Shown here in pieces: positions 3,173 to 14,817 of a DNA stretch of 15,249 nucleotides. The stretch comes from Candidatus Acetothermia bacterium. GTDB lineage: Bacteria > Bipolaricaulota > Bipolaricaulia > Bipolaricaulales > Bipolaricaulaceae. Position 1 is the first letter of the stretch; each line of letters begins with the position of its first letter. The position numbers and the translations under genes were made by a program. The notes beneath the pieces were generated by a model. That model saw only the letters and a program-made list of their open reading frames with translations. It made no database searches and was not told the origin of the DNA. The DNA lies in contig PUMK01000307.1 in assembly GCA_003551325.1 (NCBI GenBank), forward strand, positions 1 through 15,249. Direction: 5' to 3'.

Positions 3173-4972
3173 TCATGGGCTTCTCTCACCCTGCAGTACG
3201 GCCACTGCCACCGCTCCACGCCCTGCGTTCAACGCAACGATCGGCGAAATCTCGGTGACATAAGCGGGCGGCGAACCCAGAAGCGACGTCAGGCGGCGCT
3301 TGTACTCCTCGGCCTTACCGGGTGCGTCGGCGTGTACGATGCAGTACTTGTCGATGGGGGCTTCGGCGTGAAGCTTGGCCACGGTGGCCATGATCTTCTT
3401 CGTGTTCGCCCGGCGGCTGAACGCTTTGCCGTAGGCAATGCCCTTGCCTTGCGCGTCAAGGGAGACGATCGGCTTCAGGTTGAGCACCTTGCCCAGCCTA
3501 CCCTTGAGCGGGCTCACGCGGCCTCCTCGGACCATGTACTCGAAGGTGGCCACGCTCACAAAGATGCGCGTGCGGGGGATCCACTCCTGCACAAGCTTCA
3601 CCAGCTCATCATGGGTTGCTCCCGACTCAAGGGCCTCGGCAGCCTTGAGCACCAGCAGACCCTGAGCCGCCGAGTTCAGACGCGTGTCAACCACCGTAAT
3701 GCGCTCGGAAGCGTCACCAAGACGCTCGGACGCCTGGCTGAGGGTTTGGTGGGTACCGCTGATCTTACTGGAGACGGAAAGCACGATAGCGGAGGCGTAG
3801 TGATCCGCGAGAAAACTCAACCATTCCTCGGCCTGCTGTGCCGTGGGTTGAGAGGATGTCGGATACTCCTTGACCTCTTCGAGCAGACCGAACAACTGGT
3901 CCGGCACCAGGGTGACCCGATCGAGGAACGGGCTTCCATCGACGATCACCTGCAGCGGGAGAAGGTGCACTTGATGGTGGTCCAGGAGCTCGCCGGGGAT
4001 GTCGGCGATGGAGTCGGTAGCCAGAGCAACCGGAAACCGCCTGCGGTAAAGCGCGTCCTGCTGGCGCATCATGTCGTCGACCTTCTGCTGGAGGAATGTC
4101 CCGTAGCTGCGGAGCGCTGTGAACACCCGCTCCGGGTGGTCCGTGTGCACATGGAAGCGCATCCGTTCGGCGTCTCCTGCTACGATCACGGAGTTGCCGA
4201 ACCGCTCAAGGAACGCACGGACATCAGCGAGCGGCATCTCCATTTCCGAAAGGTAGCCCTCACAGCAAAAGCGAGCCGTCAACTCTGTTGACACCCCGCC
4301 CTCCACGGGCGCCGCCTCCAGTCGAACGTTCTCGCGTTGCTTCAGTGCGGCGCGTAGTCGACCGCCCTGCATCATCTTGGCGATGCCCTCCAGGAAGTGC
4401 ACAAACCCCTGGGCACCGGAGTCGACGACCGATGCGCGACGGAGCACGTCGAGCTGCTGAGGCGTCCTTCGCAAGCTCTCCCGGGCATGCTCCAGCGAGC
4501 GGGCCAGCACATCGGCAAAGTCCCTGCTCGTGCGGCACAGCTCCTGGAACGCATCCGCCCACGCCTGCATCACGGTCAGCATCGTGCCTTCCACCGGCCG
4601 GGCAACGGCCTTGTAGGCGTACGGCACCGCGCGGGCCAGCGACGCACCGAACGCGGGCGCCGTGACACATGTCTGGTCCCTGAATTCAGCAGCGAGACCG
4701 TTGAAGAACTGCGCCAGGATCATGCCCGAATTGCCTCGAGCTCCAGCAAGGGAAGCTCGGGCGATGGACCGGAAGGTGTTGTGAAGCCCTGGCGCGGGCT
4801 GGACCTCATCGAGGATGTGGTTCAGGGTAAGGGCCATGTTGCTGCCGGTGTCACCGTCCGCCACAGGAAACACGTTGATCCGGTTGAGTTCTTCCCTGTT
4901 TCGAGCAACCTCCTGGGCGCCCGCCAGAAAAGCATAGTATGCACGCCGTCCGTCCACGTAGCGTACCTTCAC
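3173..4972 (-). CDS. DhaL (DAK2)-DegV fusion, fatty-acid-kinase-like
   Basis: This 599-residue protein joins both halves of a bacterial fatty acid kinase. Residues 1 to about 205 are a DhaL/DAK2 kinase domain with NVFPVADGDTGSNM (33-46) and GARGNSGMILAQFF (77-90), which bind Mg-ATP. Residues 230-305 match the FakA middle domain (CCEGY, RFHVHTDHP at 272-280). Residues 313-599 are a DegV/FakB domain with ATDSIADIP (318-326), PTSSQPT (371-377) and SKISGT (402-407), which binds the fatty acyl chain. In Firmicutes the two are separate proteins and phosphorylate fatty acids for phospholipid synthesis. The usual DegV C-terminal His-Thr-Gly motif reads Asn-Ala-Gly (582-584). Start GTG 4972 follows GGAGGT by 6 nt and puts M1 where homologues begin; ATG 5014 lacks a good site. 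Confidence 0.88.
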   Translation of the reverse strand: MKVRYVDGRRAYYAFLAGAQEVARNREELNRINVFPVADGDTGSNMALTLNHILDEVQPAPGLHNTFRSIARASLAGARGNSGMILAQFFNGLAAEFRDQTCVTAPAFGASLARAVPYAYKAVARPVEGTMLTVMQAWADAFQELCRTSRDFADVLARSLEHARESLRRTPQQLDVLRRASVVDSGAQGFVHFLEGIAKMMQGGRLRAALKQRENVRLEAAPVEGGVSTELTARFCCEGYLSEMEMPLADVRAFLERFGNSVIVAGDAERMRFHVHTDHPERVFTALRSYGTFLQQKVDDMMRQQDALYRRRFPVALATDSIADIPGELLDHHQVHLLPLQVIVDGSPFLDRVTLVPDQLFGLLEEVKEYPTSSQPTAQQAEEWLSFLADHYASAIVLSVSSKISGTHQTLSQASERLGDASERITVVDTRLNSAAQGLLVLKAAEALESGATHDELVKLVQEWIPRTRIFVSVATFEYMVRGGRVSPLKGRLGKVLNLKPIVSLDAQGKGIAYGKAFSRRANTKKIMATVAKLHAEAPIDKYCIVHADAPGKAEEYKRRLTSLLGSPPAYVTEISPIVALNAGRGAVAVAVLQGERSP

Positions 4973-4978
4973 GTTGCG

Positions 4979-4984
4979 ACCTCC
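4979..4984 (-). promoter_or_regulatory. Shine-Dalgarno fixing the DhaL-DegV start at GTG 4972
   Basis: The minus strand reads GGAGGT followed by 6 nt and then GTG. This is the ideal spacing and the strongest ribosome site in the area, and it supports GTG 4972 over ATG 5014. Confidence 0.65.
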
Positions 4985-5002
4985 GGGCTTGCTACTTTTC
5001 CG

Positions 5003-5008
5003 ATTATC
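5003..5008 (-). promoter_or_regulatory. -10-like element upstream of the DhaL-DegV gene
   Basis: The minus strand reads GATAAT, five of six matches to the -10 consensus, with only a poor -35 (GTGAAC at 16 nt). Transcription would begin near 4996, between ATG 5014 and GTG 4972, so such a message could use only the GTG. The gene may also be read through from the AOR-MoaD genes. Confidence 0.35.
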
Positions 5009-5080
5009 CTCCATCGTAGCCCCGGTTCACACCCGCCGCGAGGCCCATCATGGGGGACAGGTCACAGCCTCCATGAAGCG

Positions 5081-10149: not shown

Positions 10150-13100
10150 GTGGACTCCCAGTGTCGAGCAAGAATGTCGAATAGCCTTACACCGTTCCGA
10201 GGCGATGCTGCGTGCATTGCATCGGCCCATCATGTTCCGCTGCATCGTTGGCGGAGCAGCTTGAGGAGCGCCGTAGTGTTGCCTCTGCTTCTGCTGGCAC
10301 TCGTCTGGCTACCAACAAGCGTGGTCCATGCAACCGCGCCCCAGTTCCTTCCGGACATCGTGGCCATCGCCGAGGCCCAGGCGGAGGCTGCTGCCACGGC
10401 GGCAGCCCGTGCGAAAGCGTCGGCCGAAGCGGCGGAAGCGATCTATGAGGAACTCGATTTCGATGCGATGCTCGACGCAGCCGCAGAGGCGAGCGATGCC
10501 GCACAGGATGCAGCCTACGAGATCGGAGAGGCCATCGCCAGCGCCCAGGCATACGCCGAGGCAGTGGCCGAGGCCTGTGCCACAGCCGTTGCCCAAGCCC
10601 GGTCGCGTGCCGACGCGGCGGCGGAGGCAGCGGCACGCGCTGAAGCAGCCGTTGATGCGTTGGCCAGTGCCTGCGCCACCGCGGGCGCCAATGCAGCGGC
10701 CTCTGTGGAAGCGTGCGCGGATGCAGCCGCATACGGAGCGGCAGCAATCGACGCGGTCGTCGAGGTGGCTGCGGCGGCGATGGCAGCCGCCAATGCCCAT
10801 GCGGAAGCATGTGCCAGGGCGCTTGCGGATGTGGAAGCCCATGCCGAAGCGGTGGCAAGGGCACTGTCAAGGGCGGAAGCAAGAGCGTTGGCCCAGGTCC
10901 AGGTGGCAGCACACGCACGGGCGGAGGCCCGGGTACAGGTTGAAGCGATAGCGAGGGCGCACGCGGCTGCCGAGGCCTACGCCGCCTCCATAGCCGAGGT
11001 CCGGGCACGCGCCGAGGCCAGGGCTGCCGACTCTCAGCGTGCGTTTGACCAAGCTGAGGATCGAGCGGAACTCGTCAGGGAGAAAGTCCTGCAGGACGTC
11101 CCTTGCGGTTTCGTCGTCGCCGAGGTCGATGGCACGATCGACGCGGCGGTGACTGCGGTCGCTGAGGCCAGCGCGGTCGCCAGCGCATCCGCCGAGGCCT
11201 GCGCGCTTGCTTACGCATCGGCCACCGCACGCGCAGAGGCTGCAGCAGCGGCCTCAGCACGCGCAGAGGCACAGGCGGTTGCCACGGCAAACGCTTACGC
11301 TGAGGCCGTCGCCATGGCTGAGGCCGTCGGCGAGGCAAAGGCGGAAGCCAGCGCAGTCGCCCAGGCGGCAGCACAGGCGATCAGCGAAGCGAAGGCCAGT
11401 GCTGTTGCCCAAGCAACGGCTTGCGCCAGGGCCTACGCAAGAGCCCAAGCAACCGCAGCAGCGTTCGCCGAGGCCGTTGCCGGGGCGAAGGCGGGTGCGG
11501 AGGCCGAAGCTTCCGCGCTCGCGCAAGCATGTGCGGAAGCGACAGGGATTGCCCGCGCGATGGCGCAGGCGGTGGGTGAGGCGTACGCACGCGCGGAGGC
11601 TGAGGCGGAGGCCTCAGCAGAGGCGTGCGCCCAAGCTTCGGCGGTCGCTGAGGCCATGGCCGAAGCGCTTGCCCGTGCAGAAGCCTCGGCGTGGGCAAGC
11701 GCAGAAGCCTCTGCCAGTGCTTATGCAGAGGCCGAGGCAAGGGCGTCCGAAGCCTACGACATCATCTGGGAGGCCGTTGAGCTCGTGAGGTCTTACGCTG
11801 AGGCGGCTGCACGAGCCGCGGCCCGGGCATCCGCAGAGGCGCAAGCATGTGCCCAAGCAGCGGCAAGCGCCCATGCGGAGGCAACGGCAAGCGCCGAGGC
11901 AGCAGGCACAGGCGAGGCTTATGCCAGCGCGTACGCTGCTTCCGAGGCCCAAGCTTCATCGGAAGCGATCGCACACGCCAGCGCATGCGCCCAGGCAGCA
12001 GCCGAAGCACACGCTGCAGCCCAGGCGGCGGCAAGCGCCCTCGCCGAAGCTCAGGCGACGGCCTCAGCAACCCTGGAAGCGGTGGCTGAGGCAGTTGGAC
12101 GTGCTCAAGCGGAGGCTCGAGCTTGTGTAGCGGCCCGAGCGGAAGCCGAGGCCGAGGTTGCCGTTGGGACCCAGGCCCTTGCTGAGGTGCGAGCGGATAC
12201 CGATGCCCATGCGCACGCCGCAGCGGAGGCCGCTGTAACGGCCTACGCGGAGGCGATCGCATCAGCGGAGGCTTCAGCGCAAGCGCAGGCTGAGGCGTTC
12301 GCACACGCCCATGCAGCGGCCCGCGCAGAGGCCAGCGCTGAAGTGGCCGTGGCAACCTACGTGGAAGCTGCAGCTTCTGCATACGCAGAGGCCGTAGCCG
12401 CCGCAAGCGCTGCCGCAAGCGCCGAGGTGCGCGTGCTGGCGGAGGCCTATGCCATGGCGCAGGCCATCGCCAGCGCTGAGGCCTACGCCTACGCCTCCGC
12501 TCAAGCGTGCGCCCTTGCCACAGCCAGTGCTGAAGCATCGGTTCGCGCCCTTGCTGAAGTCTATGCACGAGCAGCTGCATTCGCGGAGGCCAACACCGAA
12601 GCCCTCGCACAAGCGCATGTGATGGCGAGGGCCGCCGCAGATGCTGCCGCGAGCGCGTGGACATCCGTGAACATCGTGACCGACATCGAGACATCAGTGG
12701 AGGCGTTCATCGACGAAACCTGTCTCCAAGACCTCTGTGAACCCTACACATGTCCCCCGCCGCTAACGCTTCAGTGGGACTGCTGTGTGGACTGGATGGC
12801 TGAGTTGGGTGTCGTGTACAGAACCACGCCGCTTCCTCAGGAGCTCGAGGTGTGCCCGCTTCCCCAACATGTCCGCGCTCAGATCACCCAGCTTCGACCC
12901 ACACGAGCCGAGGTAGGTTTCTCCGATTTGCCGGCTGGACTGACGTACGCGTTTGACCTTGTTTCGATGCAGGGAACCATTGCCGGAGTAGTCCCCGCAG
13001 GAGGCGGAACCTGGCAGGTCAGGATCGACTTCTACGACGCCAACAACTGCCTGACTGCCATGCTCTTCCTGACGATCACGATTCCCTGCGAGGTGGACTG

Positions 13101-14817
13101 TCCGGAGACGCCCGAGTCGTTCCGGTGGCATTTCGGCGAGTTCAGCGCAGGACTGCGCATCAGCAGAACAGCGAGCTTGCCGTCGGACATCCGGACACGG
13201 CTCCAGGCGATCGGTGTGGTTCGATCCGAGATCGTGTCGAGCAATCTACCCCGCGGTCTCGAATTCGAGTTCTTCGCCGACAGATTCCAGGGGCGCGTTA
13301 CCGGAGAGGTACCCAGCGAAGGCGGAAGCTGGTCGGTCAGGGTTGCGCTGTTTGATGAGCGCGATTGTCACGTCGCCGATCTCGAAGTGTACATCACCAG
13401 CGAGCGCGCATGCCCGCCAACCGAACGTCACGGCTGGAGCTTCGGAGACGTGGAAGCCGGCACGCGGCATACCCAGAGGACGATGCCCTCCGGCCTAATC
13501 AACGAACTCCGCGCGGCGGGGATCACCCGTGTCACACAAGTATCGAGCAACCTGCCTTCGGGCGTGTCGCTTGCACTCGACATCGCGCGGGGCGTGGGCA
13601 CCCTCACCGGCCTCGTCCCCGAACGGGCGGGCAGCTACCAGGTGGTGTTCGGTCTGTTCGACGGCGATCACTGTGAGCGCTACCGTCTCACAGTAACGCT
13701 CAGTGTTCTGGTCGCCGCTCCCTGTCCCGCAACCCAGCAGCTCCGGTGGAGCTTCGGAGACGTGGAAGCCGGCACGCGGCATACCCAGAGGACGATGCCT
13801 TCTACCTTGGCAGGTCAGCTGCGCGCAGCGGGGATCACCCGTGTCACACAGGTCTCGAGCAACCTACCATCGGGCGTGTCGCTCGCGCTTGACATCGGGC
13901 GGGGCGTGGGGACCCTTACCGGCCTCATCCCTGAGCGGATGGGCAGCTACCAGGTGGTGTTCGCGCTGTTCGACGGCGATCAGTGTGAGCGCTACCGGCT
14001 CACGGTGACGCTCAACGTTCAGGTCCCCGATCCGTGCCGGACAACCCAGCTCAGGTGGGATTTCGGTGAGGTCCGCGGAGGCACGCTGCACTTGCTGACC
14101 GCGAAACAGCTACCGACGGACATCCTCAGTCAGGTGAGGGCAGCGAACATCGTCAACCATACGGTTCTCAGAAGCACGCTCCCTTCAGGGGTCAGCTTGA
14201 ACCTCGACCTTGGACGGGGTATTGCGAACCTCACTGGGTACATGCCGGCTGGCGATGCCAAGTACGAAGTTGTCTATGCTCTGTTCGACGAAACGAAGTG
14301 CGACCGGTTCCATCTCGCGGTGAGCATGCACGTTGGAGGGGCGCCCCGCCCGACGCCTGGCGCCCAGCTCGAAGTCCATGCCGTGTATGTGAGTTCAGGC
14401 ATGGCTGCCTACCTCGGCGACCGTCCAACCACGCAACATCTCCTGGACAACTTCCCTGCTCTGAACGTGCCGGTTCACGTCATCGGCGAAACCACCCCGC
14501 AGGCGACACCGTTCACGGTCGAGCGCCCTGTTGGTACCCAGGCTGCGCTCCAGTTTTCCGTCAGGATCGAAGCGGGCACGTCGCTCCAAGCGGGACCGGT
14601 CGACGGCCGGTTGCTGATGACCAGGCCGCCAACGACCTTCGTACCCGAGTCGGAGTTGCGCGGTGTTGCCATAAGGATCGGCACACACGAACAGTGGATT
14701 CCCCTGACTGAGGAACAACGGAGGGCGACGCACTTCATCCTTCGACCTACACTCAGCGCCAACACACGCGTTGTCGCCGTCTACGGCGAACGATCAGGTC
14801 CCATCATCGTCAACTAG
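10150..14817 (+). CDS. Giant secreted alanine-alternating protein with tandem Ig-like domains
   Basis: The product is about 1555 residues. Residues 38-61 form a signal peptide (hydrophobic core AVVLPLLLLALVWLP, predicted cleavage after VVHA). Residues about 72-837 are a low-complexity region in which alternate residues are Ala (or Gly, Val, Ser) and the others vary among E, S, Q, R, Y, H, C, V and M. A cysteine-rich linker (about 858-868) leads into five Ig-like He_PIG-type repeats (869-1397) and a unique beta-rich C-terminal domain (about 1398-1555). No membrane anchor, LPXTG or known sorting signal is seen at the C-terminus. I infer an extracellular structural or adhesive fibre and recognise no named family for the Ala-rich part. 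Start GTG 10150 rests on AAGGAGG; TTG 10261 would give a shorter, more typical signal peptide, and ATG 10111 and 10174 are also possible. Confidence 0.85.
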   Translation: MDSQCRARMSNSLTPFRGDAACIASAHHVPLHRWRSSLRSAVVLPLLLLALVWLPTSVVHATAPQFLPDIVAIAEAQAEAAATAAARAKASAEAAEAIYEELDFDAMLDAAAEASDAAQDAAYEIGEAIASAQAYAEAVAEACATAVAQARSRADAAAEAAARAEAAVDALASACATAGANAAASVEACADAAAYGAAAIDAVVEVAAAAMAAANAHAEACARALADVEAHAEAVARALSRAEARALAQVQVAAHARAEARVQVEAIARAHAAAEAYAASIAEVRARAEARAADSQRAFDQAEDRAELVREKVLQDVPCGFVVAEVDGTIDAAVTAVAEASAVASASAEACALAYASATARAEAAAAASARAEAQAVATANAYAEAVAMAEAVGEAKAEASAVAQAAAQAISEAKASAVAQATACARAYARAQATAAAFAEAVAGAKAGAEAEASALAQACAEATGIARAMAQAVGEAYARAEAEAEASAEACAQASAVAEAMAEALARAEASAWASAEASASAYAEAEARASEAYDIIWEAVELVRSYAEAAARAAARASAEAQACAQAAASAHAEATASAEAAGTGEAYASAYAASEAQASSEAIAHASACAQAAAEAHAAAQAAASALAEAQATASATLEAVAEAVGRAQAEARACVAARAEAEAEVAVGTQALAEVRADTDAHAHAAAEAAVTAYAEAIASAEASAQAQAEAFAHAHAAARAEASAEVAVATYVEAAASAYAEAVAAASAAASAEVRVLAEAYAMAQAIASAEAYAYASAQACALATASAEASVRALAEVYARAAAFAEANTEALAQAHVMARAAADAAASAWTSVNIVTDIETSVEAFIDETCLQDLCEPYTCPPPLTLQWDCCVDWMAELGVVYRTTPLPQELEVCPLPQHVRAQITQLRPTRAEVGFSDLPAGLTYAFDLVSMQGTIAGVVPAGGGTWQVRIDFYDANNCLTAMLFLTITIPCEVDCPETPESFRWHFGEFSAGLRISRTASLPSDIRTRLQAIGVVRSEIVSSNLPRGLEFEFFADRFQGRVTGEVPSEGGSWSVRVALFDERDCHVADLEVYITSERACPPTERHGWSFGDVEAGTRHTQRTMPSGLINELRAAGITRVTQVSSNLPSGVSLALDIARGVGTLTGLVPERAGSYQVVFGLFDGDHCERYRLTVTLSVLVAAPCPATQQLRWSFGDVEAGTRHTQRTMPSTLAGQLRAAGITRVTQVSSNLPSGVSLALDIGRGVGTLTGLIPERMGSYQVVFALFDGDQCERYRLTVTLNVQVPDPCRTTQLRWDFGEVRGGTLHLLTAKQLPTDILSQVRAANIVNHTVLRSTLPSGVSLNLDLGRGIANLTGYMPAGDAKYEVVYALFDETKCDRFHLAVSMHVGGAPRPTPGAQLEVHAVYVSSGMAAYLGDRPTTQHLLDNFPALNVPVHVIGETTPQATPFTVERPVGTQAALQFSVRIEAGTSLQAGPVDGRLLMTRPPTTFVPESELRGVAIRIGTHEQWIPLTEEQRRATHFILRPTLSANTRVVAVYGERSGPIIVN
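10369..12660 (+). repeat. Period-2 alanine-rich region in three blocks
   Basis: Within the giant protein, strict small-X alternation runs through three blocks, about 10480-11030, 11150-11750 and 11797-12655, after a short opening stretch. Recurrent units include AYAEAVA, AEASA, AEACA and AQACA. The breaks are EELDFDAMLD (about 10450-10480), a charged segment with REKVLQDVPCGFVVAEVDG (about 11030-11150) and YDIIWEAVELVRSY (about 11755-11797). Ala codons are mixed (GCC, GCA, GCG, GCT) and long exact DNA repeats are not evident, so the pattern is held at protein level. Confidence 0.85.
13435..13487 (+). repeat. 53-bp direct repeat, copy A
   Basis: This stretch is identical to 13747-13799, 312 bp downstream. 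It encodes the start of the third Ig-like domain (WSFGDVEAGTRHTQRTM). Confidence 0.9.
13747..13799 (+). repeat. 53-bp direct repeat, copy B
   Basis: Identical to 13435-13487. The exact match at DNA level, including third codon positions, points to a recent duplication or gene conversion between domains 3 and 4. Confidence 0.9.

Follow-up and report, generated by a model that had tools for sequence, protein, structure and literature searches.

Small residues at every second position of a protein are normally read as beta-structure, and Bombyx fibroin, the spidroins and the peptide EAK16, all with a period-2 pattern of small residues, form beta-sheet. In the Alacoil or alanine zipper helices pack closely through alanine (Ala), which stands at fixed heptad core positions. 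Here we describe a gene for a protein with alternating Ala in a DNA stretch of 15,249 nucleotides (the window, meaning the whole stretch analysed; contig PUMK01000307.1 of a Candidatus Acetothermia bacterium, phylum Bipolaricaulota). The protein shares the period-2 small residues with the silks and EAK16 and differs from them by a helical stripe between the alanines. It would share close helix packing through Ala with the Alacoil, but it follows a strict period 2 instead of a heptad.

Other described helical proteins resemble it in part. With left-handed coiled coils it has in common a hydrophobic stripe of about 3.5 residues (3.53-3.56 in its blocks 1 and 2), but there is no canonical a/d heptad, and by 9/32 phase arithmetic about four of the nine stripe positions per 32 residues are Ala positions. 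Single alpha-helices (ER/K) and the AEAKAEAK stretches of the TolA/AsmA type also show alternating Ala in a presumed helix, for example in the database proteins P0022 and P0064. In these two, however, the intervening positions are charged and of lower entropy (hydrophobic in 9/120 and 4/121), whereas the family of the window protein carries a stripe of hydrophobic residues and cysteine (Cys) there. With E+R+K+D at about 19% of the alternating-Ala region and a clear hydrophobic stripe, the protein does not qualify as an ER/K single alpha-helix.

The coiled-coil silk fibroins of aculeates (honeybee, ant, hornet) are secreted fibre formers made of Ala-rich helices with small core residues, tight packing and axial stagger, with an Ala part of ~210 residues and Ala at heptad positions a, d, e and g (PMC12284834). 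The window protein differs in that 771 residues carry Ala at every second position and at all azimuths, with a period of 3.55 and a repeat of 32, and in being a single bacterial chain that also contains immunoglobulin-like (Ig-like) domains. Omp-alpha of Thermotoga and SlpA of Deinococcus are likewise long exported helical rods of deep-branching diderms (PMC9388160, PMC3387000). They feature an N-terminal S-layer homology (SLH) domain and a C-terminal transmembrane helix or outer-membrane barrel, neither of which was found in the window protein.

In our opinion the residue pattern makes it fairly probable that the gene encodes a large, apparently secreted alpha-fibrous protein, the Ala region of which would be a rod of amphipathic helix with a structural role in the envelope. 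The parts of the gene to which we refer below are these:

10150..14817, forward strand: gene for the whole alternating-Ala protein, 1,555 residues, GTG start, stop codon included (14815-14817)
10150..10344, forward strand: putative N-terminal export signal, with a basic N region, the hydrophobic core VVLPLLLLALVW and then PQFLPDIV
10345..12657, forward strand: alternating-Ala region, 771 residues, from period-2 power and aligned relatives
10480..11094, forward strand: block 1, predicted amphipathic helix with a stripe period of 3.53-3.54; Cys 143, 175, 189 and 221 on the stripe
11095..11199, forward strand: first break of the alternation, a V.(E/Q)(V/I) stretch and conserved Cys 319 (Cys in 14 of 14 aligned members)
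11335..12144, forward strand: block 2, predicted amphipathic helix with a stripe period of 3.55; Cys 425, 461, 493, 567, 613 and 659 on the stripe
12265..12657, forward strand: block 3, where the alternation goes on with Val at Ala positions in a 32-residue pattern
12661..12750, forward strand: conserved junction TSVxVVxDIxTSVxxFIDxxCLxxxCexY, from an alignment of 15 rows
12751..14367, forward strand: five predicted tandem Ig-like beta-sandwich domains of ~104-116 residues each, from AlphaFold2, a DNA repeat and He_PIG matches in relatives
14368..14814, forward strand: putative C-terminal beta-rich domain (LEV.A....TPF...), of low model confidence in the window protein

The likeliest start codon is the GTG at 10150, with a ribosome-binding-like AAGGAGG 5 bases upstream, and the frame is supported by a relative, L037, which encodes the same protein. 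The preliminary description of this DNA had spoken of a secreted protein. From the hydrophobic, export-signal-like N-terminus, which we judged by eye, this is apparently so, and relatives have comparable hydrophobic N-termini followed by P-FLP-D-IV or variants.

The alternating region begins at FLPDIVAIAEAQ (nt 10345) and runs up to a TSV motif (nt 12661). One parity has Ala at 308 of its 386 positions, the other at 48 of 385; the period-2 power of the Ala series is 353, against a maximum of 9.05 over 500 shuffles, and its autocorrelation swings by about +0.5/-0.5 up to lag 15. The parity is single over the whole region, with no flip. Hence the claim of Ala at nearly every second residue over 10369..12660 was right, with coordinates good to within a few codons, and so was that of Gly, Val or Ser replacing Ala in register, given that the Ala parity also holds 27 Val, 10 Gly and 7 Ser. 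The spectrum of the Ala series by itself shows no 3.5-3.6 period in the window region. The residues between the alanines (X positions, of non-Ala parity) have an entropy of 3.69 bits in the longest unbroken stretch of 537 residues.

L037 lies on a contig of a separate metagenome-assembled genome (PUMD01000009.1, recorded as 'Clostridia bacterium'), and its protein is 87% identical to that of the window over the Ala region. Across the 771 codons the residues differ at 17 of 386 positions of Ala parity and at 74 of 385 of the other, and the 308 Ala codons show 136 silent changes against 9 replacements, which rules out an artefact of repeats at the DNA level. The alternation is also retained in relatives of 38-56% identity. 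Judging from these comparisons it is real and kept by selection.

The helical signal is hidden between the alanines. For the phase test described below, as for the analyses of Cys and of block 3, three near-duplicates (L024, L026, L037) were dropped and 14 of the 17 aligned rows kept, the window included. Autocorrelation of the X positions peaks at lags that include 14, 18, 28, 32, 36, 46, 60, 64 and 78, and over 18 proteins the hydrophobic X residues give a spectral maximum at 0.217 per residue (power 12.1, the 95% null level, null95, being 3.1). With sampling at every second residue, 0.217 is an alias of 0.283, which corresponds to a period of 3.53 residues. From X positions alone periods of 3.53 and 4.61 are indistinguishable, and we therefore tested the phase of the rare hydrophobic residues at Ala positions. 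If the structure is a helix these lie 5-28 degrees off the X stripe in five of six overlapping segments, and under the alias 152-175 degrees off; the joint-parity projection gives p values of 0.0145 (alignment columns 45-285), 0.038 (330-500), 0.0005 (330-600), 0.001 (430-640) and 0.004 (330-771). Since they are in phase with the X stripe, the aliasing is settled in favour of the helix. The dominant X period is 3.53-3.56 residues, with harmonics, and the window protein alone gives 3.55 (residues 313-849; power 17.05 against a null95 of 6.76). Within columns 330-500, X positions inside the central 90 degrees are hydrophobic in a fraction of 0.51-0.78 and those at other azimuths in 0.01-0.18, and throughout blocks 1 and 2 Glu, Gln, Lys and Arg fill the X positions off the stripe. 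Tested one by one, the window protein, L018, L026, L029, L041, L048 and L051 each have a significant stripe of their own.

Cysteine follows the same stripe and provides the clearest of the tests. We left Cys out of the fit, which used Val, Ile, Leu, Met, Phe, Tyr and Trp alone, and counted as on the stripe what lies within 60 degrees. Among 14 sequences, Cys then occupies 77 of 490 X cells on the stripe and 0 of 952 off it in columns 45-250, and 69 of 630 against 0 of 1,260 in columns 330-600, together 146 of 1,120 against 0 of 2,212 (column-permutation p <0.0001 in both ranges). Outside that count the same members have two Cys at Ala positions in columns 330-600, two in columns 0-45, 47 in columns 600-771 and 21 in columns 250-330, 14 of the last being the Cys of the break, at -69 degrees. 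By these phases the hydrophobic residues and Cys of blocks 1 and 2 are on one stripe of an alpha-helix, at the above number of residues per turn.

Charges and propensities point in the same direction. Counted in 20 of 24 regions (L018, L024, L026 and L037 left out), K/R is followed by E/D at i+4 136 times against 80.6 +/- 7.8 in shuffles, and E/D by K/R 105 times against 80.0 +/- 7.7, shuffles which ignore relatedness. Mean helix propensity is 1.23 and strand propensity 0.91. AlphaFold2 (monomer, 10-row alignment) gives helix throughout the Ala region, at a mean predicted local distance difference test score (pLDDT) of 55, mostly 53-75 over the first 390 residues; the model is compatible with a helix without being decisive.

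Folding columns 330-640 on 32 (13 of 17 rows, L022 being dropped besides the three near-duplicates) shows hydrophobic X residues enriched at phases 7, 11, 17, 21, 25 and 29 and weakly at 3, with Gln/Glu dominant at most phases between them and Gly (21%) and Ser (19%) at phase 31. Thirty-two residues, which are both the repeat and the size of large indels, equal nine turns of 3.556. At 32/9 residues per turn the row i, i+4, i+8 turns by 45 degrees per step and closes after 32, and because 4 is even each such row is either all Ala or all X. It follows that two Ala grooves wind once per 32 residues, and along any contact line zones of Ala and zones of large residues alternate about every 16 residues.

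If this geometry holds, helices could pair side by side through the stripe, one chain fitting its large residues into the Ala zones of the next at a constant axial offset, with Cys-Cys bonds possibly locking neighbouring helices and the Ig-like domains displayed at the C-terminal end of the rod. The product would be a structural rod, fibre or layer in the Bipolaricaulota envelope. Going further, we propose tentatively, as something possible rather than probable, that these proteins form an undescribed alpha-fibrous class of Bipolaricaulota and a few metagenomic relatives. Here a code of Ala at every second residue would overlie a helical code, grooves and ridges winding once per 32 residues and interlocking at that interval with Cys-Cys bonds, as a counterpart of keratin or bee silk that builds an envelope extension or sheath. 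In this way chains could mesh over hundreds of helical residues, each shifted against the next by a constant 32 residues and bonded through Cys pairs on a single stripe. What matters in our opinion is that a period-2 rule and an alpha-helical stripe apparently coexist in a large case, under selection and across much of a phylum, so that the rule by which period 2 means beta-structure fails. A new rule of helix packing becomes testable, and the Bipolaricaulota envelope gains a candidate structural protein.

Several observations weigh against a helical rod. When phase is disregarded, the power of the hydrophobic residues at Ala positions falls short of significance in two segments (p 0.075 in columns 45-285 and 0.25 in columns 330-500), where it is just the phase that agrees, and opposite charges are mildly enriched at i+2 as well (98 against 81, both ways). 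AlphaFold2 confidence is low, with 10-residue blocks at 27-41 over residues 601-800, and Foldseek with this low-confidence helix model returned no match in the PDB at E<=0.001. Columns 640-771 show no significant helical stripe (projection p 0.41; top peak 5.9, below a null95 of 7.7), nor does the distant member L052 (p about 0.33), in which the X positions are varied, and the same is true of four proteins of a sister architecture (P0016, P0019, P0090, P0106) despite varied X positions. The Ala parity changes at the start of L039, within the last third of L040, and also in L052, which means that the register is kept within blocks and changeable between them. Neighbour comparison found no conserved same-strand partner in the window's family of genomes. 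Assembly, cross-linking and location of the rod are what we infer, and so is the reason for so strict an alternation, since a stripe alone does not demand Ala at all azimuths. As to block 3 (12265-12657, columns 640-771), it has Val at Ala positions and VxVGV in the 32-residue pattern, and in some relatives the spectral maxima of this block lie close to 14/32 and 15/32, with no clear helical stripe; its structure may differ from that of blocks 1 and 2.

The preliminary description had preferred a silk- or amyloid-like extracellular fibre of beta-structure, with Ala on one face of a strand and the X residues on the other. Indeed the strict period 2 of single parity over 771 residues would suit such a fibre, as would the Ser-rich X positions of distant members such as L052, the Val-rich VxVGV stretches of block 3 and the several sister proteins without a significant helical stripe. 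We nevertheless regard it as unlikely, given the X period and its harmonics, settled as helix in blocks 1 and 2, the charge pairs at i,i+4, the restriction of X-position Cys to one helical stripe in those blocks and a strand propensity of 0.91 against 1.23 for helix. A dominant period of 3.5-3.6 with confident helix prediction had been named as evidence that would overturn the sheet: the period is there, at the X positions, and helix is predicted throughout, though not with confidence. The long Ala-rich helix, mentioned at the time as the alternative, fits better than the sheet, and the broader idea of a structural or fibrous protein stands as probable. Very unlikely, in our view, is a flat beta-solenoid with an Ala core and coils of 32 residues, for which the spacings of 14, 18 and 32 would be coil lengths. 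It could draw on the 32-residue repeat and indel size, on Val at Ala positions once per 32 residues, on a single turn-like position in each 32-residue unit of columns 330-640 (the Gly- and Ser-rich phase 31) and on the negative helical test in block 3. Yet the enriched hydrophobic X phases trace a helix face, and the 24 regions contain merely 54 Pro and 309 Gly among 18,952 residues; for blocks 1 and 2 we rejected the solenoid on the joint-parity phases and the Cys stripe.

A serious rival, although we doubt it, keeps the helix and changes its role: a periplasmic spacer between cell wall and outer membrane, comparable to Omp-alpha and SlpA and made of an unrelated helix. A long helix, an export signal and a conserved length are all in its favour, and conserved coiled-coil length is reported to be typical of spacers (PMC5082667). 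Furthermore, 17 of the 19 genomes searched in the window's family, among them the window's own at 58% completeness, gave no SLH domain at E<=1e-5 (Thermotoga and Thermus controls were positive), so the usual SLH spacer may be absent there. On the other hand, the window protein itself is without an SLH domain (Pfam, residues 23 to end, E<=1), and no C-terminal membrane helix or barrel was seen, AlphaFold2 giving Ig-like sandwiches and a low-confidence last domain. That the alternation is low-complexity drift, a hexanucleotide expansion of no structural meaning as in K/E-rich AEAKAEAK runs, seems to us hardly credible. Alternating Ala runs do occur in unrelated proteins (P0014, P0015, P0064), and some such run is present in all 108 matches of our profile. 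But X entropy in the window protein exceeds the 2.44-2.57 bits of P0014, P0015 and P0064, silent changes outnumber replacements by 136 to 9 at Ala codons, which contradicts drift, Ala is kept in relatives 38-56% identical, and the length is nearly fixed.

This length comes from 24 fetched relatives whose Ala region, cut by motif, reaches 640 residues or more; L034 (unknown residues), L046 and L048 (by script rule) and the partial frames L023, L027, L036, L038, L047, L049 and L051 were left out. It is 770-784 residues in 16 of the 24. L025 and L026 came to 734, being cut late by the motif, and to 774 in another measurement; three regions have 868, which is 772 + 96 (three times 32); L042 and L044 have 905 and 924 with the N-terminus untrimmed, and the distant L052 has 654. 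A single parity is kept in 21 of the 24. Among the 17 aligned rows, L033 carries large insertions of 18+14, 32 and 24+8 residues, and a few rows have smaller indels of 2-8.

The family is widespread in the phylum. A search with the C-terminal half gave matches in 25 of 60 genomes, the window's own among them, and a profile of this half matched 41 of 100 genomes of the phylum (Bipolaricaulota/Acetothermia) at E<=1e-6; searched against proteins, this half of the window protein retrieved only itself. The window's genome has, on another contig, a second alternating-Ala protein (L017:6131-9997, a frame of 1,289 codons) with two WxFG domains, a number common in aligned family members, while the window copy and L037 carry more. 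L023:8363-10234 is a natural short form, ~123 residues of alternating Ala with the full C-terminal half. That no named family could be recognised holds up: Pfam assigned no family to the window protein from residue 23 onwards (E<=1), and NCBIfam gave one sub-threshold match, of 20.9 bits where the cut-off is 650.

At the junction T26, S27, V28, C46, L47 and C51 (numbering of the L017 row) are invariant in 15 of 15 aligned rows. The five domains that follow are beta-sandwiches in AlphaFold2, with 10-residue block pLDDT mostly 76-92 and dips to ~50-70; the predicted template modelling score (pTM) of 0.27 for the C-terminal half means that no inter-domain arrangement can be taken from the model. 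Foldseek matches of this model are mostly Ig-like domain chains, one of them from a Bacillus S-layer protein, at TM-scores by query length of 0.08-0.16. He_PIG, a putative Ig domain, has matches at E<=0.1 in six relatives out of 17 (lowest E 1.2e-5) and none in the window protein itself. A tandem DNA repeat at 13435-14050, two copies of 312 bases with 85% matches, suggests a recent duplication. A PDB sequence search with the C-terminal profile gave no match; with the Ala region it gave a Spt20-like protein at E 3.6e-10, taken as low-complexity, and six weak matches.

We also searched 5.8 billion proteins with a profile, which was run on the 7,997 candidates with most words in common, and obtained the 108 matches at E<=1e-10. 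The stripe was tested one by one in 19 of them, in the window protein and in seven loci. In P0014, P0040, P0021 and P0064 hydrophobic X residues are too rare for the test; P0015, P0022, P0049, P0051, P0067, P0081, P0089 and P0104 show no significant stripe. P0008 has one at 3.55 (power 9.5 against a null95 of 5.95), P0010 is borderline (p 0.073), and P0013, of the sister architecture, has one at 3.47 (p 0.013). The helical stripe thus holds for the main family and not for every alternating-Ala protein. The sister architecture, seen in P0013, P0016, P0019, P0026, P0076, P0090 and P0106, consists of an N-terminal DYGDAPD domain and then alternating Ala including a PCxxV break, so that the rod would be present in more than one architecture; P0016 is recorded as Candidatus Bipolaricaulota. 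The metagenomic P0008 and P0010 (1,446 and 1,211 residues) combine alternating Ala and a similar junction with a PF19190 domain. In the ant Harpegnathos saltator, protein P0081 alternates Ala over ~217 residues (stripe p about 0.16; hydrophobic 9/109), a feature that is possibly convergent.

As to function, a nearly fixed-length rod with a Cys stripe and Ig-like domains would most simply be an envelope or extracellular structural protein. A described member of the Bipolaricaulota has bipolar prosthecae; in that article a Thermotoga-like envelope is suggested, no genes for flagella, fimbriae, pili or adhesins are reported, and prostheca development is linked to a bactofilin and a penicillin-binding protein (PMC6092417). 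Among the open-access papers listed by our searches we found no description of such an Ala-rich protein for Bipolaricaulota/Acetothermia.

The conserved neighbours of the gene in the window's family are, by eye, housekeeping genes, or a small opposite-strand gene (5 loci). In another family of the phylum five loci have, directly upstream on the same strand, a gene for a very Cys- and Trp-rich protein of ~190-212 residues with a signal-like N-terminus:

L032:5401-5970, L039:11289-11924, L040:16-630, L041:10876-11439 and L045:6005-6622: Cys/Trp-rich upstream gene

This protein, with a weak FlgD Ig-like match in two of the five, could be a cross-linking partner. It also has strong relatives in genomes without an alternating-Ala match, for example G037, G057, G075, G083, G094 and G099. 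Those neighbours in the window that have a Pfam match are ordinary enzymes. The frame at 3173-5014 on the reverse strand holds DAK2, FakA-like middle and DegV domains together, which looks like a fusion of both halves of a fatty acid kinase.

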